DNA of 64,000 nucleotides from Burkholderiales bacterium. GTDB lineage: Bacteria; Pseudomonadota; Gammaproteobacteria; Burkholderiales; SG8-41. The stretch is taken from the NCBI GenBank assembly GCA_022841375.1, contig JALHRQ010000004.1:62001-126000 (forward strand), read 5' to 3'. Below the pieces are notes generated by a model that saw only the letters and a list, made by a program, of their open reading frames with translations, ran no database searches and had not been told where the DNA came from. Below, piece after piece: positions 3,483 to 26,076 of the stretch. The first letter of the stretch is position 1. Each line of letters opens with the position of its first letter. The position numbers and the translations under genes were made by a program.

Positions 3483-5273
3483 ATGTCAACCTATACCGCG
3501 CCGCTGAAGGACATGCAATTCGCAATAGCCGAGTTCGCCGGCTTGGACAGCATTGCCTCCTTGCCCGGCTGCGGAGACGTCAATGCCGAACTGGTCGAGG
3601 CCGTGCTTACCGAAGCCGGCAAGTTTGCGCAGGGCGTGCTCGATCCGCTGAACCGCAGCGGCGACAAACAGGGTGCGCAATGGCACGACGGCGTGGTCAC
3701 TGCACCCGACGGCTTCAAGGAGGCCTACGCGCAGTTCATCACCGCCGGCTGGAATGGCCTCGGCGGGGCGACGCAATACGGCGGTCAGGGTCTGCCGCGT
3801 ATCGTCGCCATGCCGCTGCAGGAGATGTGGAACAGCGCGAACATGGCGTTCTGTCTGTGTCCGATGCTGACCACCGGTGTGCAGGAGGCGCTGCTGCATC
3901 ACGGCTCAACCGCGCTGCTGGAAACCTATATGCACAAACTGGTGTCGGGGGAATGGACCGGCACCATGAACCTGACCGAGCCGCAGGCCGGTTCCGACCT
4001 GTCGGCGGTGCGCGCGCGTGCGGTGCCCGAGGGTGACCATTACCGCATTCACGGCACCAAGATTTTTATCACCTGGGGCGAGCACGACATGGCGGCGAAC
4101 ATCGTGCACCTGGTGCTCGCGCGACTGCCCGATGCGCCGGAAGGGGTGAAGGGCATATCCCTGTTTGTGGTGCCCAAGTTCATGGTTAACGCAGACGGCG
4201 GCATCGGCGCGCGTAACGACATCCGCTGCGTGTCGATTGAACACAAGCTGGGCATTCACGGCAGTCCGACCTGCGTGCTGGCCTACGGCGACGGTCCCGG
4301 CGCGGTCGGTTATCTGGTCGGCCAGCCGCACCGCGGTCTTGAATACATGTTCACGATGATGAACCATGCGCGGCTGGGCGTCGGCATGGAAGGCATCGCG
4401 ATTTCCGAACGCGCCTACCAGCACGCCCTCGAATATGCGCGGACGCGCGTGCAGGGGCGCGCCATCGGTCAGCGCAGTGGTGACCGCGTCACCATCATTC
4501 ATCACCCGGATGTGCGGCGCATGCTGATGACCATGAAGGCGCAGATCGAAGCGATGCGCGCGCTGGGTTATTACGCAGCGGGAGAACTCGACCGCGCTCA
4601 ATACCAGCCGGACATTCAGACACGCGCGCGGCACCAGGCGCGGCTCGATTTGCTGACGCCGGTGGTCAAGGGCTGGTGCACTGAACTCGCAGTGGAAATT
4701 GCCTCGATCGGCGTGCAGATCCATGGTGGCATGGGATTCATTGAAGAGACCGGCGCCGCGCAATACCTGCGGGATGCGCGCATTTCGACCATTTATGAAG
4801 GCACCACCGGCATCCAGGCCAACGACCTGATCGGCCGCAAGGTCGGCGCCGAAAAGGGCGTAACCGCGCTGGCGTTGATTGATGAGATGCGCGAACTCGA
4901 CGCCGGTCTTGCGGCGGCGGGTGAGTCGTTTGCGGGCATGCATCGCGGTTATGTGCAGGCGGTGCATGCACTGGACACGGGGACGCGCTGGCTGGTGGAT
5001 CACTACCATCAGCAGCCAGAAGCTGCGGCAGCCGTGGCGGTACCCTATCTGAAACTGTTCGGCACCGTGGCCGGCGGCTGGCTGATGGCGCGTGCTGCGT
5101 TGATTGCGCGCGGGCAGCTGGCGGCGCCGGGTGCCGACCGCGAATTTCTCGAGGCCAAGCTGGCCACCGCGCGATTTTATCTGGAGCATCTGCTGCCGCA
5201 GGCGGTGGCACTGTCACAGACCGTAACCGCCGGTGCAGCCAGTACGCTCGCGCTGGATCCGGCGGCGTTTTGA
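3483..5273 (+). CDS. Acyl-CoA dehydrogenase, DmdC-like long form
   Basis: The product (596 residues from the ATG at 3483) is longer than the roughly 380-residue short- and medium-chain enzymes and fits the DmdC-like group with an extra C-terminal domain. That group oxidises acyl-CoA or 3-methylthiopropionyl-CoA thioesters in the cytoplasm and passes electrons to ETF. It shows the flavin-loop motif TGTMNLTEPQAGSDLSAVRA and a conserved IYEGTTGIQANDLIGRK near residue 437, whose glutamate matches the catalytic base. IHGGMGFIEETG precedes it. The ATG at 3483 is preferred over a codon 36 bases upstream because that one lies in the tail of the etfA terminator. The adjacent etfBA genes supply the likely acceptor. 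The substrate cannot be told from sequence. Confidence 0.93.
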   Translation: MSTYTAPLKDMQFAIAEFAGLDSIASLPGCGDVNAELVEAVLTEAGKFAQGVLDPLNRSGDKQGAQWHDGVVTAPDGFKEAYAQFITAGWNGLGGATQYGGQGLPRIVAMPLQEMWNSANMAFCLCPMLTTGVQEALLHHGSTALLETYMHKLVSGEWTGTMNLTEPQAGSDLSAVRARAVPEGDHYRIHGTKIFITWGEHDMAANIVHLVLARLPDAPEGVKGISLFVVPKFMVNADGGIGARNDIRCVSIEHKLGIHGSPTCVLAYGDGPGAVGYLVGQPHRGLEYMFTMMNHARLGVGMEGIAISERAYQHALEYARTRVQGRAIGQRSGDRVTIIHHPDVRRMLMTMKAQIEAMRALGYYAAGELDRAQYQPDIQTRARHQARLDLLTPVVKGWCTELAVEIASIGVQIHGGMGFIEETGAAQYLRDARISTIYEGTTGIQANDLIGRKVGAEKGVTALALIDEMRELDAGLAAAGESFAGMHRGYVQAVHALDTGTRWLVDHYHQQPEAAAAVAVPYLKLFGTVAGGWLMARAALIARGQLAAPGADREFLEAKLATARFYLEHLLPQAVALSQTVTAGAASTLALDPAAF

Positions 5274-5284
5274 GGGTGACGCCC

Positions 5285-5581
5285 GTGTTGACGCGTGTGT
5301 TGTTGTTTGCCGCCGGTATCGCCGTGGTTTTTCCGGCGCATGCCGAGTTGACCTGTGAGCAGATCGTTGCCAGTGCGCAGACGGCAGTATCCCTCCGCGA
5401 CCAAGGCATGACCCTCAGCCGCGTGCTGGCTGAGACTGAAACTGCTGCAATGCGCGAGCGTTTCCGTCCCGATGAACTGGGCATGCTGCGCCGGGCCATC
5501 CGTCTCACTTATACCGGCGAAGTATCGGTTTACGAGCTTTCGGACAGCTGCGCCGAGAGCCGGGGCGGCAAAAAGCGCTGA
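5285..5581 (+). CDS. Small exported protein of unknown function
   Basis: A 98-residue protein begins at a GTG (5285), placed eight bases after a GAGGG that overlaps the end of the dehydrogenase gene; a TTG at 5270 in frame is an alternative. Residues 1-20 form a signal peptide with a likely cleavage after AHA. The mature part has one cysteine near its start (ELTCEQI) and one near its end (SDSCAES), which could form a disulfide, and it is otherwise helical and charged. I recognise no family. It is the last gene before the exported methyltransferase-like array and may belong with it. Confidence 0.7.
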   Translation: MLTRVLLFAAGIAVVFPAHAELTCEQIVASAQTAVSLRDQGMTLSRVLAETETAAMRERFRPDELGMLRRAIRLTYTGEVSVYELSDSCAESRGGKKR

Positions 5582-5635
5582 ATGCGTTATATTGACGCGC
5601 GCTTTACAGGGCGTATTCAAAGGGAGAGGGCGGCG

Positions 5636-6526
5636 ATGAACAGCAGTTGGCGATATGCGGCAGTGATTATGGGTGCGATGTTGTCGTTTGCTGCGGTGGC
5701 GCAGAAGCCGCCGGCACAAAAGCAGCCGTTGAAGCAACTTAATGTGCCGCCGGAATACGAGCGTAGCGGTGGCCCTTATGTGCCGACGCCCAATGTTGTC
5801 GTTGATCAGATGCTGGGCATGGCCAATGTCGGTGCCCGCGATTTTGTGATGGATCTCGGTTCCGGTGACGGCATCATCGTGCTGACTGCAGGGCACAAGC
5901 TGAAGGCCAGCGGCTACGGCGTCGATATCGACGAGGAACTGATCCGTCTGAGCAATGAGCGCGCCAAAAGTCTGGGTATTGCCGACCGGGTGCGTTTTGA
6001 GGCAAAGGACATATTCAAAACCGACGTCAGCAAGGCCACGGTGATCACGCTGTACCTGCTGCCCGAAATGATGCGCAAGCTGCGCACCAAGCTGTTTACG
6101 GAGCCGCGGCCGGGCACACGCATTGTGTCGCATGATTACCACTTCGACGAATGGATGCACGATTCCGAAGTCAGTTTCGACGTGCCCGAAAAGGAATTTA
6201 TATCCGGCGTGCCGCGCGCGACGTTATATCTGTGGGTGGTGCCGGCGAGGATTGACGGCGCCTGGCGCATGCAGATCGACGGTCAGGGCGACTACGAAGT
6301 GGCGTTGAAGCAAAACTACCAGAAGTTCGAAGGCAAGGCTGAATCGGCGTCACGCAAGATCACTCTGATGGAGCCTCAGCTCAGCGGCACCGAAATCCGT
6401 TTTGTAATGCCGCTGACCGCGGGACGCGGACGGTTTCTCGGCAAGGTCGATGGCGAGCGCATGGAAGGCACTGCGAATCTCGACGGCAAGACCCTGCGCT
6501 GGCGCGCAACAAAAGTAAAAAGCTGA
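5636..6526 (+). CDS. Exported class I SAM methyltransferase-like protein, paralog 1
   Basis: The 296-residue protein starts at the ATG at 5636 after an AAGGGAGAG ribosome-binding site; an in-frame ATG at 5582 would put about 18 charged residues before the signal peptide. Residues 1-22 look like a signal peptide ending AAVAQ. A Pro/Lys/Gln-rich linker follows, then YVPTPNVVVDQML, SAM-binding motif I DLGSGDGIIV, the acidic loop GVDIDEE, and DIFKTDVSKATVITLYLLP. This resembles the small Rossmann methyltransferases related to the FAM173/ATPSCKMT lysine methyltransferases. A beta-rich domain of about 100 residues starts after WVVPARIDGAW. It is the only paralog with the extended linker and with Ile in place of Arg in motif I (GDGI). 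Export of a SAM-binding fold is odd because SAM is cytoplasmic. Confidence 0.85.
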   Translation: MNSSWRYAAVIMGAMLSFAAVAQKPPAQKQPLKQLNVPPEYERSGGPYVPTPNVVVDQMLGMANVGARDFVMDLGSGDGIIVLTAGHKLKASGYGVDIDEELIRLSNERAKSLGIADRVRFEAKDIFKTDVSKATVITLYLLPEMMRKLRTKLFTEPRPGTRIVSHDYHFDEWMHDSEVSFDVPEKEFISGVPRATLYLWVVPARIDGAWRMQIDGQGDYEVALKQNYQKFEGKAESASRKITLMEPQLSGTEIRFVMPLTAGRGRFLGKVDGERMEGTANLDGKTLRWRATKVKS

Positions 6527-6540
6527 ACGAGGTCCGCCCG

Positions 6541-8139
6541 CTAGTTCATCAGCAGTGCCGGCGGGGCATTTTCGAGAACGCCCTGACGGAAGCCGGCCTG
6601 ACTCGCGGCAATGTCCAGCGCCGCGGCATTCCACGCGTCATGAATGATTTTGCCGCCGGCAGTCAGTTCAGCACCGACGGCGCGCGGTTTCGCCAGCATG
6701 TCCCACAGCGTGGCCGAGTGCCGCTCCGGCACGTCGGTCATGGTGACGCGTTGTGGTGCCGGTAACGGCGAGGCCGAGGCCACCAGGAAGCTGTTGATAC
6801 GTCGCGCGCCCGGCCACTCCGGGCGATACAGCGCGGCATGCGGCATTTCACTGGTCAGCGTGGCCAGCAGGTGAGCGTAGGCGCGCGGGTCTTCGACGTC
6901 GGCGAAGGTGTTGAACACGGCCACTCCACCCGGCCGCAGACAGCGTTTCAGGTCGCTGAAAAATTCCCGCGTGATCAGGTAATCCGGCGTGCCGTCGCCG
7001 TGGAAAAGATCAACCAATACGACGTCATGGCGCGGTGTGCATTGACCGACATAAGTGCGTGCATCGGCCTGGTGTGTGGTGACGCGGCGTGCATCGAAGC
7101 CGAAATAACGCGTCGCGACTTCGACCGAGGACGGATCGATTTCGACGACTTCAACAGTGCTGCCGCTGGCGGCAAAACGCGACGGCACGATGCCGGCGCC
7201 GAGGCCCAGCATCAGCACCTGCTGCGGTTGCGGCCGGTAGGCGCGGGCCAGTGCCTCTAGCGCATAGGTGTAAAACGACACCGAGCGCTGGTTCGAATCC
7301 ACGGTGTTCTGGATCAGGCCGTCATGAAAATACAGACGCAGGAATTTGCCTTCACTGTCCTTGTCGCTGCGCAATACCTTGACCGTACCGAACAACGAAC
7401 TGTGCACGGCCTCGACCTGCCATAACGCACCGCTGAAGGCCAGCGGCCCTTGCCGCCCGGTGTAACGGTCGCCCTGCCAGGCGAGCAGCCCGGCGCTGAT
7501 GATCGCGGTGATGGCGCAGGCGGTGACCAGGCCGCGCCGGGTCATCGGCAGTTTTGAGTTTGCAGCAACCAATGACAGCCCGCCGAGCAGCAGCGCGACC
7601 ATCAGGGTCGCGGTGTAATTGCTGATGTAGGGAATCAGGCCGAAGGCGGTGATCAGCACGCCGGCGACGGAGCCCAGGGTGCTGACAAAAAACACCAGTC
7701 CGGAACCGGCATCGCCCTGGCTGCCGCCTTTCTGGCGCTGCAGCAGCAGCGCGACCAGCAGCGGGTTCATCGCCGAGGTGGCGATCAGCGGCAGCAGCAG
7801 CAGGATCAGGCAGGCGGCGAATGCGCCGCCGACCAGGCTCCAGCGCGCCAGCGGATGAAAGGCGTAGGGGTAAATCAGACAGGCGGCGACGATGGCGATG
7901 CCGGCCAGTGCCGGCATGACCGAAAACAGCAGCGCCAGGCGTTGCGGCGCAGGTGCTTTGGCGCCGCCGGCGAGGCGGCCGCCCCACCAGTAGCCGAAGG
8001 CCAGCGAAATCAGCGTGATCGACAGGATGCCGGTCCAGATGTACAGGCTGACGCCAAAGTACGGCGTCATGATGCGCGACGCGAGCAATTCCAGCGCGAG
8101 AATCGCGCCGCCGGATATGAAAATGAGGGCGAAAGGCAT
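6541..8139 (-). CDS. Membrane-anchored spermidine synthase-like protein
   Basis: The 532-residue product starts MPFALIFISGGAILALELLA at 8139. The N-terminal half (about residues 1-215) holds six or seven hydrophobic helices of the MFS/spermidine-synthase fusion type. The C-terminal half carries a polyamine-synthase Rossmann domain with MLGLGAGIVPSRFAASG, VEVVEIDPSS, a nucleotide-pocket DAR and VVLVDLFHGDG, whose aspartate corresponds to the aminopropyl-transfer base, then TREFF and LRPGGVAVFN. Homologues are annotated as spermidine synthases but few have a proven product. An open frame continues upstream on this strand across the neighbouring methyltransferase gene; I reject that extension because it has no family features. 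It lies head-to-head with paralog 2, sharing the 8140-8280 promoter region. Confidence 0.85.
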   Translation of the reverse strand: MPFALIFISGGAILALELLASRIMTPYFGVSLYIWTGILSITLISLAFGYWWGGRLAGGAKAPAPQRLALLFSVMPALAGIAIVAACLIYPYAFHPLARWSLVGGAFAACLILLLLPLIATSAMNPLLVALLLQRQKGGSQGDAGSGLVFFVSTLGSVAGVLITAFGLIPYISNYTATLMVALLLGGLSLVAANSKLPMTRRGLVTACAITAIISAGLLAWQGDRYTGRQGPLAFSGALWQVEAVHSSLFGTVKVLRSDKDSEGKFLRLYFHDGLIQNTVDSNQRSVSFYTYALEALARAYRPQPQQVLMLGLGAGIVPSRFAASGSTVEVVEIDPSSVEVATRYFGFDARRVTTHQADARTYVGQCTPRHDVVLVDLFHGDGTPDYLITREFFSDLKRCLRPGGVAVFNTFADVEDPRAYAHLLATLTSEMPHAALYRPEWPGARRINSFLVASASPLPAPQRVTMTDVPERHSATLWDMLAKPRAVGAELTAGGKIIHDAWNAAALDIAASQAGFRQGVLENAPPALLMN

Positions 8140-8280
8140 GGGGGAAGTGAGAAGCTGTCGGTTATAATTCGCCGCCAATCTACCACACGCGCCGTCGCAT
8201 CCCGGTGCCGACAACAAGGCCTGTGGTGGCCTCCGGTTTACGGGAAGACCAAGACCGACATTTCGGCGGTGGAGACAATC

Positions 8281-9204
8281 ATGCAGCGTCTGAGGATGGT
8301 GGTGAAAGCAGTTCTGTTGCCGCTGGCGATGGTTACGGCAATTGCCGCAGGCCATGCCGCCGATGTCCGCCCCAGCGTGCCTTATGTGCCGACGCCGCAG
8401 GCGGTTGTCGATCGCATGCTGGCCATGGGGCGGGTCACTGCCCAGGACTACCTGATCGATCTCGGCTCCGGTGATGGCCGCATTGTGGTGACTGCCGCGA
8501 AAAAATTCGGCACCCGCGGTTTCGGTGTGGACCTCAATCCGGTACGCATCACTGAAGCCAATGACAATGCGCGCCGCAACGACGTCACCGACAAGGTGGG
8601 GTTTTACCAGCGCGACCTGTTCGAGACCGATCTGTCGCAGGCGACGGTGATCACCATGTATCTGCTGCCGCGGGTGAATCTCGCGTTGCGGCCGAAGCTG
8701 CTTGAACTTAAACCCGGCACCCGCCTGGTCTCGCATGATTTCGACATGGGCGACTGGAAGGCCGATGAATCCCTGCGTATGGATGCCGCGGACAAATTCT
8801 CCGGCGCCGGCGGTGACAGTGATGTTTATTTGTGGATCGTGCCGGCACGCATCGCCGGCGCGTGGCGCGTGCAATTGCCGGTGTCCGGCAAGTCGCAGAC
8901 TTACGAAATCAGTTTTGAGCAGCAATACCAGCAGGTCTCGGGTGCGGCGAGGGTCAACAGCCGAATGGCCAAAATTGAAGGCGCCAAACTGCGCGGGGAT
9001 GAACTGACGTTCATGTTTTCCGCCGAGGTCAATGGCACGATGGTCAAGCACGAATTCAGCGGCCGTGTTTCCGGCAACGAGATGACGGGGCAGGTGGCCC
9101 TTTCCGGCAGCCGCATGGCGGCGCGGGTGGAGTGGACGGCCGAACGCGCGGCGCGTACGGCCGCAATACCGCCATTGGCGGGAGAGAGGAATGTGGTTTA
9201 TTGA
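8281..9204 (+). CDS. Exported class I SAM methyltransferase-like protein, paralog 2
   Basis: The 307-residue protein starts at the ATG at 8281 with a GGAGA ribosome-binding site. Its signal peptide runs to about residue 26 (AGHA). Then come PYVPTPQAVVDRML, motif I DLGSGDGRIV, acidic loop GVDLNP, DLFETDLSQATVITMYLLP, and RLVSHDFDMGDWKAD. A beta-rich domain starts after WIVPARIAGAW and includes QQYQQVSGAA. It opens a run of five co-directional paralogs; the next starts inside its stop codon (TGATG). The divergent spermidine-synthase-like gene shares its upstream region, which holds a TTATAAT at 8164-8170 that could serve as a -10 element. The reaction is unknown; the SAM site looks intact. Confidence 0.88.
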   Translation: MQRLRMVVKAVLLPLAMVTAIAAGHAADVRPSVPYVPTPQAVVDRMLAMGRVTAQDYLIDLGSGDGRIVVTAAKKFGTRGFGVDLNPVRITEANDNARRNDVTDKVGFYQRDLFETDLSQATVITMYLLPRVNLALRPKLLELKPGTRLVSHDFDMGDWKADESLRMDAADKFSGAGGDSDVYLWIVPARIAGAWRVQLPVSGKSQTYEISFEQQYQQVSGAARVNSRMAKIEGAKLRGDELTFMFSAEVNGTMVKHEFSGRVSGNEMTGQVALSGSRMAARVEWTAERAARTAAIPPLAGERNVVY

Positions 9205-10103
9205 TGCAAGGTTTATTGACCAGGAAAATGGCGGCCGGAGTGGCCGCGGTGGTGTGGATGGCAACAGCGGCAGCCCAGGATTTTGGCGATACGCCTTACG
9301 TGCAGACGCCACAGGTGGTGGTTGATGCGATGCTGGAGACCGCCAAAGTCACCAAAACCGATTACGTGATCGACCTGGGTTCCGGTGACGGGCGCATGGT
9401 GATCACCGCGGCAAAAAAAATCGGCGCGCGCGGTTTCGGCGTGGATCTCGACAAGCGGCTGGTGGCCCTGGCGAACAACAATGCACGCAAGGCCGGCGTT
9501 GCTGACCGCGCCAGATTCTACGCGCGCGACCTGTTCGAGACCGATCTGTCACCGGCCAGCGTGATCACCATTTATCTGCTGCCTGAAGTGAATCTGATGG
9601 CGCGGGCCAAGTTGCTGGCGCTGGCACCGGGCACGCGCATTGTGTCGCACGACTACGGCATCGGCGACTGGATACCCGATCAGGAATTCGAGATGGATGC
9701 GCCGGGCAAGCCGGTCGGCCGCTCGCAGAAAAGCAAGGTGCTGTTCTGGGTGGTACCCGACAAGGTGGCTGGACGCTGGGTATGGCCGGTGACCGTGGGC
9801 GGACAGAAGCAGCAGGTCGAACTGATGCTGAAGCAGAATTTCCAGAAATTGGAAGCCACAGCCAGACTCGATGGCCGCGCCGTGGTAGTCGATGAAGCGA
9901 AGCTGACCGGCCGTAGGGTGGACGTCACGCTGACACTGCCGGAACTCGGCAAGGTTATATTCAGCGGGCTGCGCATTAATCAGGCGCTTGAAGGTGAGAT
10001 GCGGGTGGAGGGTAAACCGGCGCCATGGAGCGCGGTGCGGGTAGAGATCCTCGACCCCGTTCATGTTACGGCACCGCCGCCGGTGATTCGCGAAATCTAT
10101 TAA
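9204..10103 (+). CDS. Exported class I SAM methyltransferase-like protein, paralog 3
   Basis: The 299-residue protein begins at the ATG at 9204, which shares one base with the preceding stop, so translation is probably coupled. Residues 1-23 form a signal peptide ending ATAAAQ. The methyltransferase domain shows PYVQTPQVVVDAML, DLGSGDGRMV, GVDLDKR, and DLFETDLSPASVITIYLLP, then HDYGIGDW. The C-terminal domain begins near WVVPDKVAGRW and is the usual length. It replaces the second proline-tyrosine part of the YVPTP motif by YVQTP. It has all the SAM-contacting motifs of its neighbours. Confidence 0.88.
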   Translation: MQGLLTRKMAAGVAAVVWMATAAAQDFGDTPYVQTPQVVVDAMLETAKVTKTDYVIDLGSGDGRMVITAAKKIGARGFGVDLDKRLVALANNNARKAGVADRARFYARDLFETDLSPASVITIYLLPEVNLMARAKLLALAPGTRIVSHDYGIGDWIPDQEFEMDAPGKPVGRSQKSKVLFWVVPDKVAGRWVWPVTVGGQKQQVELMLKQNFQKLEATARLDGRAVVVDEAKLTGRRVDVTLTLPELGKVIFSGLRINQALEGEMRVEGKPAPWSAVRVEILDPVHVTAPPPVIREIY

Positions 10104-10117
10104 GTGTTGCGTGTGTG

Positions 10118-10975
10118 ATGAATAAATATATGTTTTTAAAGAGAATTATTTGCGGCCTCGCTGTGCTGTCAGTATTTTTGCCGGCTGCGCAAGCGCAGCA
10201 ACAGCAGCAGTATTTCGATGTGCCGTTTGTGCCGACGCCCTATGTGGTAATCGAGGAAATGCTGCGTCTCGCCAAAGTCACGCCGCAGGATTACGTGATG
10301 GATCTGGGTTCGGGCGACGGCCGCGTGTTGATTACCGCAGCGAAGCGTTATGGCGCGCGGGGAATGGGCGTTGATCTTGATGAGGATCTGGTGGCGCAAA
10401 GTCTGGCGTCGGCTGCCGAGGCCGGCGTTGCCGAACGCGTGACCTTCCAGCAGCAGGATTTGTTCAAGACCGATTTCAGCCGTGCGACGGTGATCACGAT
10501 GTATCTGCTGCCGGGGGTGATGATGCGTCTGCAGCCACGGCTGCTCGAGCTGAAACCCGGCACGCGACTGGTGTCGCATGATTTCAGTCTCGGCGACTGG
10601 AAGCCGGATGTCACCACGCAGATCCGCAAGAATACTTTTCTGTGGATCGTGCCGGCGAAGGTGGCGGGGCCGTGGCTGATCAAGGCAGCGTTGCCGGGCG
10701 AACAACAGGATATTGAAGTGGAATTGCGTCAGCGTTACCAGGAGGTTGACGGTCATGGCAAATTCGGCGGACGACATGCGCAGGTCTGGGAATCCCGGCT
10801 GTCCGGCGACCAGTTGAGTTTTGTGATGGTCGATGACCGCGACCGCGACAACGAGGCGGCGTTGTATTTCGAGGGGCGTATCAACGGCGATGTCATCGAG
10901 GGGCGTGTCCGTCGTGGCACCGGTAATGCCCGGACCGTGCATGCCTGGCGTGCGGTGCGCCCACCCGTCAAATGA
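10118..10975 (+). CDS. Exported class I SAM methyltransferase-like protein, paralog 4
   Basis: The 285-residue protein is the shortest of the six. The start is taken at the ATG at 10118; an in-frame upstream extension would lie inside paralog 3. The ribosome-binding site is weak. The signal peptide is rich in Val/Leu and ends PAAQAQ, followed by a QQQQQ tract. The domain shows PFVPTPYVVIEEML, DLGSGDGRVL, GVDLDED, and DLFKTDFSRATVITMYLLP, with HDFSLGDWKPD. The C-terminal domain keeps LRQRYQEVDG. The beginning has unusually AT-rich codons (MNKYMF) compared with its neighbours. Confidence 0.87.
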   Translation: MNKYMFLKRIICGLAVLSVFLPAAQAQQQQQYFDVPFVPTPYVVIEEMLRLAKVTPQDYVMDLGSGDGRVLITAAKRYGARGMGVDLDEDLVAQSLASAAEAGVAERVTFQQQDLFKTDFSRATVITMYLLPGVMMRLQPRLLELKPGTRLVSHDFSLGDWKPDVTTQIRKNTFLWIVPAKVAGPWLIKAALPGEQQDIEVELRQRYQEVDGHGKFGGRHAQVWESRLSGDQLSFVMVDDRDRDNEAALYFEGRINGDVIEGRVRRGTGNARTVHAWRAVRPPVK

Positions 10976-11871
10976 TGGAGGTGCCGTTTAGCGGCAAGAT
11001 GCGCCGCGGCCTGCTGGTTTTGGCATTGTGCGCACCGCTGGCGGTTTCGGCCTCGGACGTGCCGTACGTGCCGACGCCGATGAATGTGGTGGATGCGATT
11101 CTGGAAATGGGCGGTGTCGGGCCCGGCGATTTTCTGGTTGATCTCGGGTCCGGCGACGGCCGCATTTCGATCCGTGCAGCGAAGCAGTTCGGCACCCGCG
11201 GTTTTGGCGTTGAGATTGAGCACCACCTGGTGCAAATGGCACGTGACGACGCGCGCAGCCAGGGTGTGGCCGACAAGGTGACTTTTGACGCGCGCGATCT
11301 GTTCGGCACTGACCTCGGTCGCGCGACGGTGATCACTGCTTATCTGCTGCCGTCGTTGAACCTGCGGCTGCGGCCGCAGTTGTTCGAACAGCTGCGGCCC
11401 GGCTCACGAATCCTGACCCATGATTTTGATTTTGGCGACTGGCAGCCCGACCGCAAACTGACGATTGCCGTGCCCGACAAGCCGTACGGCGCGCCGCGCA
11501 GCGATATCATGCTGTGGGTGGTGCCGGCGGACTTCAGCGGTGTCTGGCAATGGACAGTGCCCGGTGCCGATGGCGAAGTGCGCTACGAGGCGCGGATTAA
11601 ACAGCGCTTCCAGATCCCTGAACTGGTGCTGACGACCCAGGGCCTGCGTCTGGCGGTCAATGAGGCGCGGATCCGCGGCAACACGCTGAGTTTTATGATC
11701 AACGGAACTGCGGGGCCGCAGCGCTTCAGCGGAGAATTGAGCGGCAACAGGCTCAGCGGGCAGACAGTTCGCGGCAGTGGCCAGGGCGTGTCCTGGCAGG
11801 CAACACGCATCAAAACAGGCAAAATGGATATCGGGACGGGTGGCGCAACGCCTGTCGCGGTCGGTAATTGA
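10972..11871 (+). CDS. Exported class I SAM methyltransferase-like protein, paralog 5
   Basis: The 299-residue protein starts at an ATG overlapping the previous stop by four bases (ATGA), a typical coupling arrangement; an internal ATG at 10999 would give the same signal peptide without nine leading residues. The signal peptide ends near AVSAS. The domain shows PYVPTPMNVVDAIL, DLGSGDGRIS, acidic loop GVEIEHH and DLFGTDLGRATVITAYLLP, then THDFDFGDWQPD. The C-terminal domain keeps IKQRFQIPE. The acidic loop is Glu-Ile-Glu rather than the Asp-Leu-Asp of its neighbours, and His-His follows it, so its ligand preference may differ. Confidence 0.87.
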   Translation: MMEVPFSGKMRRGLLVLALCAPLAVSASDVPYVPTPMNVVDAILEMGGVGPGDFLVDLGSGDGRISIRAAKQFGTRGFGVEIEHHLVQMARDDARSQGVADKVTFDARDLFGTDLGRATVITAYLLPSLNLRLRPQLFEQLRPGSRILTHDFDFGDWQPDRKLTIAVPDKPYGAPRSDIMLWVVPADFSGVWQWTVPGADGEVRYEARIKQRFQIPELVLTTQGLRLAVNEARIRGNTLSFMINGTAGPQRFSGELSGNRLSGQTVRGSGQGVSWQATRIKTGKMDIGTGGATPVAVGN

Positions 11872-11884
11872 CCAAGGAGCGGTG

Positions 11885-12787
11885 ATGAAACTGGTAAATG
11901 TGTTGGGCGGTATCGCAGTAATGGGTTTGGCGCTGGCCTGGCCGGCAACGGCACAGGAAGGCCGCGGCGATGTGGTGTATGTGCCGACGCCGCAGATCGT
12001 CGTCGATACCATGCTGGAGATGGCCAAGGTCGGCCCCAATGATTTTGTCATCGACCTGGGGTCGGGCGACGGGCGGATCATCATCACCGCGGCAAGCAAA
12101 CGCGGCGCCAGGGGTTTTGGTGTCGATCTCGATACCGTGCTGCTGAAAATGGCCAATCAGAACGCGCAAAAAGCCGGCGTCACTGACAAGGTGCATTTTG
12201 TCGAGCAGAACCTGTTTCTGACCGACCTTTCCAAGGCGACGGTGCTGACCAGCTATTTGCTGCCGACGATGAATCTGCGGCTGCGCCCCAAGGTCCTGTC
12301 GCTGAAGCCGGGCACCCGGGTGGTCGCCCATGACTACCATTTCGGTGACTGGCATCCGGATGAACAGCGCGAGCTGATCGTTCCCGAGAAAAAAGTCGGC
12401 ACGCCGGGCGTGAGCTACATCTTTTCGTATGTGGTGCCGGCACGGGTTCCGGGCAAGTGGCAGTCATTGATGAATATCGATGGCCGTGAAACGCCTTTTG
12501 AATTCACGCTGCAGCAGGAGTTCCAGGAACTGGAAGGCAAGGTCGATATCCGCGACCGCAGCGCCGATTTGCGCGGCCGCCTCGACGGCGAGCGCATCCG
12601 CATGATCGCGGGCGGTCGCAACGGCATTCTGCGTCACGAGTTCACCGGTCAGGTTGACGGCGGCATCATTACCGGCACGTTGGCTCTCGGTGAGGGCGCG
12701 ACACGCAAGCAGCTGCCGTGGACCGCAAAGCAGGTGTTGCGCGGCCAGCTGAAGCGCGCGGCCGACGAACCTGAAGCTGAAAAATAA
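11885..12787 (+). CDS. Exported class I SAM methyltransferase-like protein, paralog 6
   Basis: The 300-residue protein starts at the ATG at 11885 behind AAGGAG, the best ribosome-binding site in the array. The signal peptide ends near ATAQ. The domain shows VYVPTPQIVVDTML, DLGSGDGRII, GVDLDTV, and NLFLTDLSKATVLTSYLLP, then HDYHFGDWHPD, as in paralog 1. The C-terminal domain begins after VVPARVPGKW and contains LQQEFQELEG. It closes the array; the next gene is an amino-acid permease 59 bases on. Its own strong ribosome-binding site and small gap from paralog 5 suggest it is translated independently within the same transcript. Confidence 0.88.
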   Translation: MKLVNVLGGIAVMGLALAWPATAQEGRGDVVYVPTPQIVVDTMLEMAKVGPNDFVIDLGSGDGRIIITAASKRGARGFGVDLDTVLLKMANQNAQKAGVTDKVHFVEQNLFLTDLSKATVLTSYLLPTMNLRLRPKVLSLKPGTRVVAHDYHFGDWHPDEQRELIVPEKKVGTPGVSYIFSYVVPARVPGKWQSLMNIDGRETPFEFTLQQEFQELEGKVDIRDRSADLRGRLDGERIRMIAGGRNGILRHEFTGQVDGGIITGTLALGEGATRKQLPWTAKQVLRGQLKRAADEPEAEK

Positions 12788-12846
12788 TCCGCACTTGCAG
12801 TCATCACAAACAGCTGTGGCGATAACGTTGCGGCGGGGGAGCATGC

Positions 12847-14190
12847 ATGAGCACTGAACAGACTGCGGCCACGCCGCGCCAGACGCTGTCCGTCACCGAC
12901 GCCTGCGCGATGATCGTCGGGCTGATCGTCGGCGCCGGTATTTTCGGCACACCGTCGGTTGTTGCCGGTGCAGTAGGGGATGAAACGACGCTTTATGCGG
13001 TATGGATCGCCGGCGGCGTGTTTTCGATCATCGGCGCGCTGTGTTACGCCGAACTGGCGACGGCATTTCCCTCCGCCGGGGGCGAATATCATTTCCTGCA
13101 GCGCGCCTTCGGCCGTTCGCTGGCCTTTTTGTATGGCTGGGCACGGATGACGGTGATCGTCGCCGGTTCGATTGCGGTGTTTGCCTATCTGTTCGGCGAT
13201 TACCTGTCGCGGGTGATCAACCTCGGGGCGCATTCTTCGGCGATCTGGGCGGCGCTGGTGGTCGTGGTGCTGACAGCGGTCAACTACCGCGGCATCCGTG
13301 AAGGCAAGGCGACGCAGAACCTGTTCACGGTGCTCGAGGTCGGCGGACTGCTGCTGATCGTGGTGGCGGGATTGTTCTTTGCGGCGCCGCCGGCTGCCGC
13401 CGTGCCTGCAGCCGCGGGCGCCGGGCAGCCCTGGTACATGGGCGCCGGCATCGGTTCGGCGATGATTTTTGTATTGTTCACGTATGGTGGCTGGAATGAT
13501 GCCGCGTATATCTCGGCTGAAGTGCGCGATCGTGAGCGCAATATGGCGCGCGCGCTGCTGATTGCCATCAGCGTGGTGGCGCTTCTTTATCTGTTGGTCA
13601 ACTTCGCCTACCTGAAGGGGCTGGGTTACGACCAGATGGCGCGCTCCAATGCAGTGGCGGCCGATCTGATGAAAGCCGTGTGGGGGCCGACCGGGGAAAA
13701 AATCATTGCGATCATGATCGCAATCGCCGCGCTGACCTCGGTCAACGGTTCGATGATTGTCGGCGCGCGTTCCAACTATGCGCTGGGTCGCGACTGGCCG
13801 ATGCTCAGCTACCTCGGGCAGTGGCACGAAGCCAGCGGTTCGCCGCGCAATGCGATGCTGGTGCAGGGCGTCATCGCACTGGCGCTGGTGGGGTTGGGCG
13901 CGATCCAGAATTCCGGGTTCAAGGGTCTGGTTGAATATTCACTGCCGGTGTTCTGGGGTTTTTTCCTGCTCACCGGTATTGCGCTGTTCGTGCTGCGGGT
14001 AAAAGAACCGGATGCGCCGCGGCCGTTCAAGGTGCCTTTTTACCCGGTGGTGCCGGCGATATTCGTATTGATGTGCGGCTACCTGCTGTATTCCAGCCTG
14101 ACTTATCACCAGACGCATGCGCTGGTGGGACTTGGAGTGCTTGCCGTAGGCGCTGTTGTTCTGCTGATTGCAAGAATAAAAAAGAAATAA
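12847..14190 (+). CDS. APC-family amino acid permease
   Basis: The 447-residue product is an integral inner-membrane transporter of the amino acid/polyamine/organocation superfamily. Twelve hydrophobic segments can be seen. TM1 carries the unwound substrate-binding stretch GLIVGAGIFGTPS (about residues 21-33), and TM3 has the typical FPSAGGEYHFLQRAFG (about residues 74-89). TM6 contains FVLFTYGGWNDAAYISAEV. The substrate is unknown. The gene starts 59 bases after the exported methyltransferase array with GGGGGAG near its ATG and could be read with it or alone. Because a spermidine-synthase-like gene lies nearby, a polyamine-related role is possible but unproven. Confidence 0.9.
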   Translation: MSTEQTAATPRQTLSVTDACAMIVGLIVGAGIFGTPSVVAGAVGDETTLYAVWIAGGVFSIIGALCYAELATAFPSAGGEYHFLQRAFGRSLAFLYGWARMTVIVAGSIAVFAYLFGDYLSRVINLGAHSSAIWAALVVVVLTAVNYRGIREGKATQNLFTVLEVGGLLLIVVAGLFFAAPPAAAVPAAAGAGQPWYMGAGIGSAMIFVLFTYGGWNDAAYISAEVRDRERNMARALLIAISVVALLYLLVNFAYLKGLGYDQMARSNAVAADLMKAVWGPTGEKIIAIMIAIAALTSVNGSMIVGARSNYALGRDWPMLSYLGQWHEASGSPRNAMLVQGVIALALVGLGAIQNSGFKGLVEYSLPVFWGFFLLTGIALFVLRVKEPDAPRPFKVPFYPVVPAIFVLMCGYLLYSSLTYHQTHALVGLGVLAVGAVVLLIARIKKK

Positions 14191-14318
14191 AAACAAATAC
14201 TTAGATATTATTCCGGGGTGTGGTCCCGCCACCCCCGGTGCGATCGCTTGCGCTTGAAATCGCCTCGCACCGCCCCCAGATTTCTGTCACCGTTTTGTTC
14301 ACCCTTTCCGGAGTAGCG

Positions 14319-23762: not shown

Positions 23763-24731
23763 ATGGAAAGTATAGGGACTTGGTGGATGTGGGCCGCATT
23801 TGCGGCTTTTGTCGTTGTTGCGCTTGTGGTTGACCTTGTCGCACTGGAATCCAAAGGATCGGCCAAGGTGTCGTTCAAGGAGGCGCTCAACTGGTCGATC
23901 GTCTGGATCGTCCTTTCATTCGTATTCAACGGTTTGTTGTGGTGGTATCTCGATGCCAACCACGGGCGTGAACTCGCCAACGAGAAGTCGATGGAGTTCT
24001 TTACCGGCTATCTCATCGAGAAGTCACTTGCCGTAGACAACATTTTTGTGTTCCTGATGCTGTTTACGTTTTTTGGCGTGCCGATCCAATACCAGAAACG
24101 GGTGTTGATACTGGGCATCATCGGCGCGATCGTGCTGCGCGCGATTATGATCCTGATCGGCGCCTGGCTGATTTCTCAGTTTCACTGGGTGCTCTATCTC
24201 TTCGGACTATTCCTGCTGGTTACAGGCATCAAAATGCTGATGATGGCGGAGGTGGAATCAGACCTTGAAAAGAACCCGCTGTTAAAGTGGATGCGCAGTC
24301 ATTTCCGCATCACTGAAGGTTTCCATGGCGAGAATTTCATGGTCATGAAAGATGGCGTGCGCTGGTTCACGCCCCTTTTTGTGGTGATGGTGATGATCGG
24401 AATAACTGACGTGATCTTTGCGGTGGACAGTATTCCGGCAATTTTCGCGGTGACGCTTGACCCCTTCATTGTGCTCACCTCGAACGTGTTCGCGATTCTC
24501 GGCCTGCGCGCGATGTATTTCATGCTGGCCGATCTTGCGGATCGTTTCCATCTGCTGAAATACGGTCTGGCCTTCATCCTGGTGTTTATCGGCATAAAGA
24601 TGTTGCTGCTCGACATCTACAAGATCCCGATCGGATTTGCGCTGGCTGTAGTCGGTATCGTGCTGGTGGCCTCGATGCTGGCGAGCCTGTGGGTGACGCG
24701 CCCCGGACAGAAGCAAGTCAAAAAACCCTGA
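23763..24731 (+). CDS. alx: TerC-family manganese exporter-like protein, Alx type
   Basis: The 322-residue product has about nine hydrophobic segments. It carries the diagnostic Alx stretches SWSIVWIVLSF-like WSIVWIVLSFVFNGLLWWYL, FFTGYLIEKSLAVDNIFVF, VLRAIMILIGAWLISQFHW, ITDVIFAVDSIPAIFAVT, and SNVFAILGLRAMYFML. The acidic residues in the EKSLAVDN and DVIFAVDS segments are conserved and are thought to line the metal path. Escherichia coli Alx is controlled by a yybP-ykoY riboswitch and lowers cell manganese, and this gene sits behind the same riboswitch. It is a second TerC protein next to the UspA fusion, but the two belong to different subfamilies. It ends in a strong terminator. Confidence 0.92.
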   Translation: MESIGTWWMWAAFAAFVVVALVVDLVALESKGSAKVSFKEALNWSIVWIVLSFVFNGLLWWYLDANHGRELANEKSMEFFTGYLIEKSLAVDNIFVFLMLFTFFGVPIQYQKRVLILGIIGAIVLRAIMILIGAWLISQFHWVLYLFGLFLLVTGIKMLMMAEVESDLEKNPLLKWMRSHFRITEGFHGENFMVMKDGVRWFTPLFVVMVMIGITDVIFAVDSIPAIFAVTLDPFIVLTSNVFAILGLRAMYFMLADLADRFHLLKYGLAFILVFIGIKMLLLDIYKIPIGFALAVVGIVLVASMLASLWVTRPGQKQVKKP

Positions 24732-24753
24732 TTGCGCTGCACAGCGCGCAATG

Positions 24754-24785
24754 ACGGCCGGCCACATCTGTGGCCGGCCGTTTTG
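24754..24785 (+). terminator. Rho-independent terminator after alx
   Basis: ACGGCCGGCCACA (24754-24766) pairs perfectly with TGTGGCCGGCCGT (24769-24781), followed by TTTG. The loop is very short and the stem unusually strong. Confidence 0.8.
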
Positions 24786-24837
24786 CTTGCTGGAGTATTA
24801 TTGCCATCCCTTATCGATAACGATTCTGTGTCATTGC

Positions 24838-26076
24838 ATGAGTATTTCACAACCTTCGGGCGAATTGCCCGCGCGTGACATGTTCGAGCGTGTCAGGAAT
24901 TTCCTGTCCGGCGAGGCCGTGCCTGGCGTGTTGCTTTTGCTTGCCGCGATCACGGCCATGGCAATTGCCAATTCCCCTCTCGCGCCTTACTACCACAGCC
25001 TGTTCGCGGTGCCGATTTCTGTTCGTATCCATGATTTTTTTATCGACAAGCCGCTGCTGCTTTGGGTCAATGACGGGCTGATGGCGCTGTTCTTCTTTCT
25101 TGTCGGGCTGGAGCTCAAGCGCGAATTGCTTGAGGGGGAGTTGTCTGATCCGCGTCAGGCGCTGTTGCCGACAGCGGCGGCGATGGGAGGTATCGCGGTG
25201 CCGGCAATGATTTATGCCGCGTTCAATGCCGGTGACGAGATGGCACTGCGCGGCTGGGCGATTCCTGCTGCGACCGACATCGCTTTTGCACTGGGGGTTC
25301 TTGCCTTGCTCGGAGATCGGGTGCCGCGCGGACTCAAGGTGTTTCTGCTGACCGTGGCAATCGTTGATGACATCGGCGCGATTATAATAATCGCGGTGTT
25401 CTATTCGACCACTCCGCCTGCGCTGTCGCTCGCCGTCTCGGGTACTGCATTGCTGACTCTGGCGGTGTTTAACATTGTGGGGGTGCGGCGGGTGTCTGCC
25501 TATCTGCTGGTCGGCCTGGTGCTGTGGGCCGCGGTGCTTAAGTCGGGTGTCCATGCCACCATCGCCGGCGTGTTGCTGGCGATGGTCATACCGCTGCGCA
25601 CCGGCGAAATGCCGTCGCCGGCGCGGCAACTTGAGAGTGACCTGCATGGCCCGGTACAGTTTGCGATCCTGCCGCTGTTTGCCCTGGCCAATGCCGGGGT
25701 GACATTTCAGGGCATGTCGTTAGCTGACTTTGGCGAATCGATTACATTGGGCATCGCCGCAGGACTGTTCTTCGGCAAACAGATCGGCATCATGGCGGTT
25801 TCTGCGGCGCTGATCTTTGCCGGTTTCGCGCGGTTGCCGCAGGGTGCAACCTGGCTCAGCTTTTACGCGGTGACCGTGATCTGCGGTATCGGTTTCACGA
25901 TGAGCTTGTTCATCGGAAGCCTGGCTTTTTACGGGCACCTGGAGACCGCAGTGGACGAGCGCGTCGGCATCCTGCTGGGATCGGCCGTGTCCGCCATCGT
26001 CGGCTATCTGGTACTGCGTTTCGCAACATCCGGCAAGTCAGCAGAGGCGGAAAAATCATCCGGACCGGCCTGGTGA
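24838..26076 (+). CDS. nhaA: Na+/H+ antiporter NhaA
   Basis: The product is 412 residues from the ATG at 24838, within the normal range for NhaA. This inner-membrane antiporter exchanges two protons for one sodium. Visible features are the N-terminal LLLLAAITAMAIANSPL helix, FFFLVGLELKRELLEGEL, AIPAATDIAFALGVLALLG, the two transport aspartates in VAIVDDIGAIIIIA, and GIGFTMSLFIGSLAF near the end. The start is uncertain because no candidate has a good ribosome-binding site; an in-frame ATG at 24880 is possible. The gene follows the alx terminator and is therefore probably expressed separately. Confidence 0.94.
   Translation: MSISQPSGELPARDMFERVRNFLSGEAVPGVLLLLAAITAMAIANSPLAPYYHSLFAVPISVRIHDFFIDKPLLLWVNDGLMALFFFLVGLELKRELLEGELSDPRQALLPTAAAMGGIAVPAMIYAAFNAGDEMALRGWAIPAATDIAFALGVLALLGDRVPRGLKVFLLTVAIVDDIGAIIIIAVFYSTTPPALSLAVSGTALLTLAVFNIVGVRRVSAYLLVGLVLWAAVLKSGVHATIAGVLLAMVIPLRTGEMPSPARQLESDLHGPVQFAILPLFALANAGVTFQGMSLADFGESITLGIAAGLFFGKQIGIMAVSAALIFAGFARLPQGATWLSFYAVTVICGIGFTMSLFIGSLAFYGHLETAVDERVGILLGSAVSAIVGYLVLRFATSGKSAEAEKSSGPAW

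Follow-up and report, generated by a model that had tools for sequence, protein, structure and literature searches.

In bacteria, S-adenosylmethionine (SAM) is generally taken as a cytoplasmic cofactor, and to our knowledge this methyl donor is not known to occur outside the cell interior. Here we analyze a 64,000-nucleotide stretch of a Burkholderiales bacterium (GenBank assembly GCA_022841375.1, contig JALHRQ010000004.1, positions 62,001 to 126,000; hereafter the window), in which six paralogous genes, A to F, encode class I methyltransferases with predicted export leaders and are followed by an amino-acid permease gene whose relatives adjoin such methyltransferase genes in other phyla. The nearest characterized relative of A to F is the lysine methyltransferase aKMT (aKMT4) of Sulfolobus (PDB 5fa8, 5fad, and 5jwj; NF041081), which has the same fold, about 45% identity over the methyltransferase domain, and the same motif I. 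Unlike A to F, the solved aKMT chains start at this domain, with neither leader nor C-terminal barrel.

The known substrates of aKMT are intracellular proteins (PMC4639711), unlike the envelope targets proposed below, and aKMT homologues in alpha-proteobacteria have already been mentioned in print (PMC9006661). FAM173A and FAM173B (ANT-KMT and ATPSc-KMT) are distant aKMT relatives with a hydrophobic N-terminus; they are mitochondrial and have an uncleaved membrane segment (PMC9006661). A preliminary description of the window had likened its proteins to FAM173, a likeness that holds by way of aKMT. Mitochondria obtain SAM through a carrier that also exports S-adenosylhomocysteine (SAH) (PMC8539049, PMC9006661); this carrier belongs to the mitochondrial carrier family, unlike the LAT-like permease of the window. 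Methylation of the outer-membrane protein Msp4 has been reported in Anaplasma, with no exported enzyme described in the part cited (PMC4636158), and the membrane enzyme PilD methylates pilins (PMC3584216).

Six paralogous methyltransferase genes of exported type

Genes B to F are contiguous (Table 1): B and C share 1 base (TGATG), D and E overlap by 4 (ATGA), and the C/D and E/F gaps are 14 and 13 nucleotides (nt), respectively; the linkage, including that of the permease gene after F, is operon-like. All six products share one domain order, in which the leader is followed by the methyltransferase domain and then by a C-terminal domain of roughly 105 residues (modeled for B and aligned in the others). 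A search with B retrieved A and C to F with E values from 4e-58 to 4e-75. The open reading frames (ORFs), the alignment, and these E values confirm the preliminary description, which had reported six paralogous genes with signal-peptide-like leaders and SAM motifs, five of them contiguous with stop–start overlaps at two junctions. Nine family copies are present in the genome, namely A to F and three elsewhere (L009, L010, and L011), one of which lacks the C-terminal domain. Measured against one congeneric genome, the ratio of nonsynonymous to synonymous substitution rates (dN/dS) was 0.07–0.15 for all six genes, which in this one comparison indicates purifying selection on A to F.

Export leaders

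The N-termini of A to F each have a basic n-region followed by an 11-residue hydrophobic core free of charged residues (mean Kyte-Doolittle value, 2.0–2.8). Cleavage-like sites, identified by eye, are AVA-QK in A, GHA-AD in B, AAA-QD in C, AQA-QQ in D, VSA-SD in E, and ATA-QE in F. Thus, the n-region, h-region, and small-residue cleavage site that mark Sec-exported proteins are found in all six, and leader features are present in all nine copies of the genome. Conservation of the leaders is low (19% identity across A to F), and cysteine is absent from residue 31 onward in each of the six proteins.

We then examined the wider family with a rule that requires a basic n-region, then a stretch of 11 hydrophobic residues containing no charged or strongly polar residue, and a small-residue or lipobox site; this is a fixed rule of our own with some freedom in start choice, and its output is a prediction. 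It was passed by 190 of 207 family ORFs, compared with 63 of 307 other long ORFs at the same loci, a control that may include genuine membrane or exported proteins. Three of 210 ORFs are missing from this count because a locus edge truncates them, and the family set omits 14 more matches in which motif I could not be read, most of which are also truncated at an edge. Most of the 17 ORFs failing the rule are leader-like by eye, with the exception of L046. Of 28 further family regions, 26 had a readable frame, and 24 of these passed. In 16 cyanobacterial regions, we found a lipobox in 12, a Sec-type leader in two, no leader in one weak relative, and no readable frame in one. Across the family, leaders are mostly of the Sec type, with Tat-like leaders in five members by the rule and lipoboxes in cyanobacteria. 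Since the kind of leader varies in this way across three phyla, it is unlikely that these proteins are not exported, and export of the family is well supported by prediction. The FAM173 type is marked by an uncleaved N-terminal anchor with the enzyme on the side that contains SAM; by prediction, the leaders of the window family look cleavable or of lipoprotein type.

The SAM-binding core

All six window proteins contain motif I (DLGSGDG) and an acidic residue after the second beta strand, as had been claimed for them; two other elements of that motif description hold in five of the six, because VPTP reads VQTP in C and A continues with II where an arginine was expected after motif I. In 113 aligned rows, D34, G36, G38, D39, and G40 of motif I were invariant, and post-I residue 58 was D or E in every row. 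The count of motif I in a genome scan (206 of 210) is partly built in, since the scan used the DLGSGDG pattern. Outside the SAM motifs, residues also found in active aKMT were retained: Y/F101 and W133 in 113 rows, R122 in 111, and H126 in 105. The G38R substitution abolishes aKMT4 activity (PMC4639711), and D94A in motif I abolishes FAM173B activity (PMC5828452); on our own reading of the motif, these positions would correspond to G38 and D34 of the family, respectively.

The AlphaFold model of mature B, built from 113 sequences (predicted local distance difference test score, pLDDT, 93.2), superposed on the SAH complex 5bxy with a Z score of 26.6 and a root-mean-square deviation (rmsd) of 1.6 Å over 153 aligned residues (52% identity), and on 5fa8, the SAM complex of aKMT, with a Z score of 26.1 and an rmsd of 1.6 Å over 154 residues. 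The class I seven-beta-strand (Rossmann-type) fold is therefore present together with motif I and the post-I acid, and 5bxy and aKMT are the nearest solved relatives of the family.

5bxy was deposited as an RNA methyltransferase of Salinibacter ruber with SAH bound. Its printed part (residues 3–139) is identical at 137 of 137 positions to a protein with a Sec-type leader (L216, genome G988), whose gene starts 50 nt after a gene of the permease clade described below. Thus, 5bxy is a trimmed form of an exported-type family member; unlike the window proteins, this member is short and has no barrel. The deposited crystal structure gives good support for SAH binding by a trimmed member, a property that the window proteins themselves are predicted to share. 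Taken together, the invariant motif I and post-I acid, the superposition on SAM and SAH complexes, and the identity of 5bxy make another ligand unlikely.

Linkage to a clade of amino-acid permeases

The gene adjoining F, which the preliminary description did not mention, encodes a permease that may provide a route for SAM to the periplasm. The protein passes the gathering score of PF13520 (198.3 bits; gathering score, 27) and does not reach the cut-off of the LAT-type family TIGR00911 (215.7 bits; cut-off, 701.8). LAT-type proteins exchange amino acids. The permease shares a superfamily and a nearly full-length alignment with LAT-type exchangers (LAT1, y+LAT1, and 6f2g, which we take to be the exchanger BasC), but belongs to a separate clade with conserved residues of its own (R100, G214, G260, W326, and P367).

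Over 154 loci, an amino-acid permease was the commonest neighbor of the methyltransferases; it occurred at 71 loci, and 68 of these 71 genes share the methyltransferase strand. These loci overlap in genomes, and many had been fetched because of a permease match. A plainer figure comes from the methyltransferase scan, in which 39 of 80 loci had a permease and flanks were short at several of the remaining loci. When 44 methyltransferase-bearing genomes were searched with the window permease, 30 matches had at least 42% identity over at least 390 residues, 14 had at most 35% identity, and two were fragments at contig ends (both in G677; 52% over 226 amino acids and 55% over 89). Twenty-nine of the 30 strong matches adjoin a methyltransferase gene, and the thirtieth (in G691) ends 247 bases before the contig end.

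Because these 44 genomes had been chosen for the methyltransferase, phylum-wide samples were analyzed as a check. In Cyanobacteriota (146 genomes), the methyltransferase was found in 15 genomes and the clade permease in 13, all within the 15; all 14 permease genes lie at most 400 nt from a methyltransferase match on the same strand. Similarly, in Bacteroidota (198 genomes), the methyltransferase was found in eight genomes and the permease in seven, all within the eight, and 7 of 7 permease genes lie within the same distance on the same strand. Both samples include the genome on which they were centered. In Pseudomonadota (398 genomes, including that of the window), the clade permease was found in 11 genomes, adjacent to a methyltransferase in five and not in six; six candidates were scored per genome, making copy numbers lower bounds, and 7 of the 16 methyltransferase genomes, whose matches were weak (E above 1e-20), were left out of the co-occurrence test. 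Fisher p values for co-occurrence, with center genomes included, were 8e-17, 4e-12, and 7e-7 for Cyanobacteriota, Bacteroidota, and Pseudomonadota, respectively.

In a maximum-likelihood tree of 86 permeases, a clade of 71 rows (support 99/100) comprised 64 adjacent to a methyltransferase, one at a contig end, and six unlinked. Outside the clade, one of 15 rows was adjacent, although 13 of the 15 had been fetched as 2-kb pieces in which neighbors are not visible. The six unlinked rows form one nested group inside the clade (L170–L175) and retain the five conserved residues; no methyltransferase occurs in the 4–5 kb viewed around them, and the copy in G339 adjoins a TonB-dependent receptor gene. 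This group has possibly changed function.

Both gene orders occur, with either the permease or the methyltransferase first. A single clade permease gene accompanies 19 methyltransferase genes in G041 and nine in the genome of the window, a ratio more in keeping with a common donor than with a separate acceptor for each enzyme. Four of five plasmid records with the methyltransferase were viewed; the permease–methyltransferase pair is present on those of Leptolyngbya boryana, Agrobacterium salinitolerans, and Chelatococcus, and not on that of Gloeothece. On the A. salinitolerans plasmid pDG3-1g (L229), which is typed as conjugative, the pair lies near an IS3 transposase and a RelE/ParD pair.

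A divergent C-terminal domain

A to F share 53% identity across the methyltransferase domain and 30% across the C-terminal one. Modeled alone, the C-terminal domain of B formed an all-beta barrel that matched avidins and streptavidin (Z score, 13.5; 2.1 Å over 92 residues), tied with the Cap15 receptor, the barrel domain of quinohemoprotein amine dehydrogenase, designed barrels, and others. For avidin/streptavidin, Cap15, and the dehydrogenase, Z scores were 12.6–13.5 over 92–99 residues, but sequence identity was 8–15%. The best Foldseek E value was 0.017. Pfam assigned no family at cut-off to the C-terminal domain of the first member, giving sub-threshold matches only; over 106 C-terminal members, four families appeared, each in one of 106, with E values up to 0.01. 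Where short members without the barrel stand beside a permease, as in Nostoc and for the 5bxy protein, the permease gene comes first at the loci viewed, and the pair lacking this domain is the minimal form in cyanobacteria and others. Hence, the smallest unit seen consists of the permease and the catalytic domain.

Old lineages in a recurring order

All 37 genomes searched in the GTDB family of the window, including its own, hold 5–17 copies at an E value of 1e-15. Any copy is present in 5 of 24 other genomes of the order, and a class sample had the family in 6 of 229 genomes, the five others with a single match each. Beyond Betaproteobacteria, the family extends to Alphaproteobacteria, Cyanobacteriota, and Bacteroidota. 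In a comparison of 15 array loci, a SpeE-like gene is preceded by one or two methyltransferase genes in 13 (two loci being cut), and in 14 more methyltransferase genes follow and lead up to the permease. In a tree of 99 rows, each window position falls in a supported group of its own with other genera; one non-array paralog of the window genome joins the A group, and a sister lineage lies within the D group. The groups of A, B, C, D, and F also contain G041, which belongs to another family, so that these five arose before the two families diverged. All six positions represent long-separated lineages, and their order recurs from locus to locus.

Other neighbors

Genes like the SpeE-like one between A and B (Table 1) lie near methyltransferases at 24 of 154 loci and in each case on the opposite strand. 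A comparison of 26 sequences, some of them near-identical, gave seven transmembrane (TM) segments for 24, with most K/R residues in loops 2, 4, and 6, a bias that would place the C-terminal enzyme domain outside, in the periplasm; judged from this predicted topology, the gene fits the extracytoplasmic theme. The small protein upstream of A, for which Pfam gave no family at cut-off, has relatives close to the array at 8 of the 154 loci. A leader protein of PF01135 type lies near the array at five loci (L035, L036, L119, L120, and L121); in L119 (15232–15996, minus strand), a leader that is lipoprotein-like by eye precedes a PCMT-type methyltransferase match (PF01135, 30.3 bits), perhaps representing a second kind of exported methyltransferase. 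TctC-type solute receptors adjoin the methyltransferase at L044, L053, L060, L096, L179, and others, and LysR regulators and htpG appear in 9 and 13 of the 154 neighbor sets, respectively.

The G+C content of the array (0.61–0.63) is inside the window range (0.55–0.64), and a tRNA scan made alongside this composition check of the array found none. Positions 24001–26000 of the window show a strong AT skew of -0.258 relative to the rest. A link to riboswitches was dropped: the Rfam search described in the Discussion found none for SAM or SAH, and a lax search of positions 4500–14300 gave chance-like matches only.

Table 1. Positions of the genes and domain described here (window coordinates)
Feature	Position	Strand	Description	Basis
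A	5636..6526	+	Exported-type class I methyltransferase, 296 aa (leader, methyltransferase and C-terminal domain)	ORF, alignment; NF041081, 96 bits
B	8281..9204	+	Exported-type class I methyltransferase, 307 aa; mature form modeled, pLDDT 93.2	ORF, alignment, AlphaFold
C	9204..10103	+	Exported-type class I methyltransferase, 299 aa; 1-nt stop/start overlap with B	ORF, alignment
D	10118..10975	+	Exported-type class I methyltransferase, 285 aa	ORF, alignment
E	10972..11871	+	Exported-type class I methyltransferase, 299 aa; 4-nt overlap with D	ORF, alignment
F	11885..12787	+	Exported-type class I methyltransferase, 300 aa	ORF, alignment
C-terminal domain of B	8836..9150	+	Predicted all-beta barrel, avidin/streptavidin-like fold; modeled alone, pLDDT 95.3; counterparts in A and C to F	AlphaFold, fold search; alignment
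Permease	12847..14190	+	Amino-acid permease, amino-acid permease (APC) superfamily, LAT-like, 447 aa; methyltransferase-linked clade; starts 59 nt after F	Pfam/NCBIfam, tree
SpeE-like	6541..8139	-	Membrane protein (fused MFS/spermidine synthase, NF037959), 532 aa, seven predicted TM segments; between A and B	Profile match
Small protein	5270..5581	+	103-aa ORF with leader-like N-terminus, just upstream of A	ORF; relatives near array

Discussion

We propose that A to F are exported and methylate different envelope targets outside the cytoplasm, and that the linked permease exports SAM in exchange for SAH, a reading to which we give an even chance as a whole. The proteins would cross the inner membrane and act in the periplasm, the cyanobacterial relatives doing so as lipoproteins. 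The aKMT-type catalytic domain, a seven-beta-strand lysine methyltransferase distantly related to FAM173, would transfer the methyl group from SAM, and the avidin-like barrel would probably select or dock the target. Since the catalytic domains are alike but the barrels differ, the six enzymes probably methylate different targets, which would most likely be lysines of envelope proteins. The permease would export SAM and take back spent SAH, a need shared by all copies; both molecules bear an amino-acid head, and one exchanger would serve every copy. Mitochondria offer a possible parallel, with a different carrier reaching the same end. Taking the parts separately, we regard catalysis outside the cytoplasm as likely, hold the case for SAM/SAH as the permease substrate in balance, and consider lysine a plausible though somewhat doubtful acceptor. 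As a tentative generalization, at least three phyla may carry out extracytoplasmic SAM-dependent methylation through a LAT-like SAM/SAH exchanger and exported lysine methyltransferase-like enzymes, with the enzymes of one betaproteobacterial family expanded into ordered arrays of old lineages bearing a barrel for each envelope target, and with the pair also carried on plasmids; we hold this broader reading somewhat less likely than not.

The preliminary description had left three options: action outside the cytoplasm with an unusual ligand, binding of another nucleotide-like molecule, or absence of export. The last two being unlikely, as set out above, extracytoplasmic action is favored, with an ordinary ligand in place of the unusual one. 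Its suggestion that six divergent copies serve different targets gains indirect support from the old, ordered lineages and the concentration of divergence in the C-terminal domain. As for the checks it named, leader features are found in all six window proteins and, by our own rule, in most family ORFs; the B model keeps the SAM fold and superposes on 5bxy and 5fa8; and tandem arrays recur, in a family that reaches beyond Betaproteobacteria.

Several observations weigh against our proposal. The SAH in 5bxy may stem from the cytoplasm of the expression host, and scores against the archaeal lysine methyltransferase family NF041081 (93.5 to 120.5 bits) fall under its curated cut-off of 200. The permease clade is absent from 16 of the 44 methyltransferase-bearing genomes, and 6 of the 11 Pseudomonadota genomes with the clade, which form the one nested group, have no methyltransferase in the 4–5 kb viewed. 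The solved relatives of the permease are amino-acid transporters, and no feature of its sequence points to SAM. At Rfam gathering scores, no SAM or SAH riboswitch was found in the window and 25 loci. Finally, other transport genes recur in the 154 loci (TctC-type receptor, 11; ABC ATPase, 8; sodium:solute symporter, 5; TctA, 4), making the permease the commonest neighbor and not the sole transport one.

The permease might instead carry the acceptor or product, an amino-acid-like small molecule that the exported enzyme methylates in the periplasm, with SAM arriving otherwise. Its membership in the amino-acid permease superfamily, the smallest unit of one permease with one short barrel-less methyltransferase, and a barrel that could hold a small ligand would all suit this explanation, which we nevertheless consider unlikely, because nine and 19 divergent methyltransferases face a single clade permease in the two genomes counted above, the nearest characterized relative methylates protein lysines, and the supply of SAM is left unexplained. 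The exported protein might also be a catalytically idle binder of SAM or SAH, scavenging, for example, for the permease: its binding core is intact, and a cyanobacterial lipoprotein beside a permease looks like a binding-protein arrangement. Against this stand the retained residues beyond the SAM motifs that are shared with active aKMT (101, R122, H126, and W133; we have no source for their role) and the six lineages kept apart; moreover, we know of no binding-protein use for permeases of the APC superfamily, and we judge an idle binder improbable.

Two further explanations take their cue from FAM173. ANT-KMT (FAM173A) methylates a carrier protein, the mitochondrial adenine nucleotide carrier (PMC9006661), and the permease encoded by the adjacent gene might likewise be the target of the window enzymes. 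We rejected it as a lysine target, since a comparison of 65 clade permeases showed no lysine position with conservation of at least 90%; with many methyltransferases per permease as well, this explanation is very improbable. Alternatively, the proteins could stay cytoplasmic and methylate membrane proteins from inside, the leader serving as an anchor like the uncleaved segment of the mitochondrial FAM173 proteins (PMC9006661). A basic n-region ahead of the core predicts that the enzyme lies outside, relatives are predicted to have lipoboxes, Tat-like leaders, and small-residue cleavage sites, and the six mature proteins lack cysteine; on these predictions, a cytoplasmic location is very improbable.

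We know of no SAM or SAH transporter in the APC superfamily, and none was recognized among the matches listed in our literature search. A search of open-license papers likewise listed no periplasmic class I methyltransferase and no such permease pairing among its matches. As far as these searches go, three findings are new: that the pairing with the permease spans phyla, that 5bxy belongs to a protein with a leader, and that the array lineages are old and keep a recurring order. A deposited structure can now be re-read as part of a longer protein whose export leader had been trimmed off, and the two-gene pair of exported-type methyltransferase and permease makes extracytoplasmic SAM directly testable in laboratory bacteria. 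If our proposal is true, it could name a bacterial SAM/SAH transporter of the APC superfamily and could add a kind of post-export protein modification.

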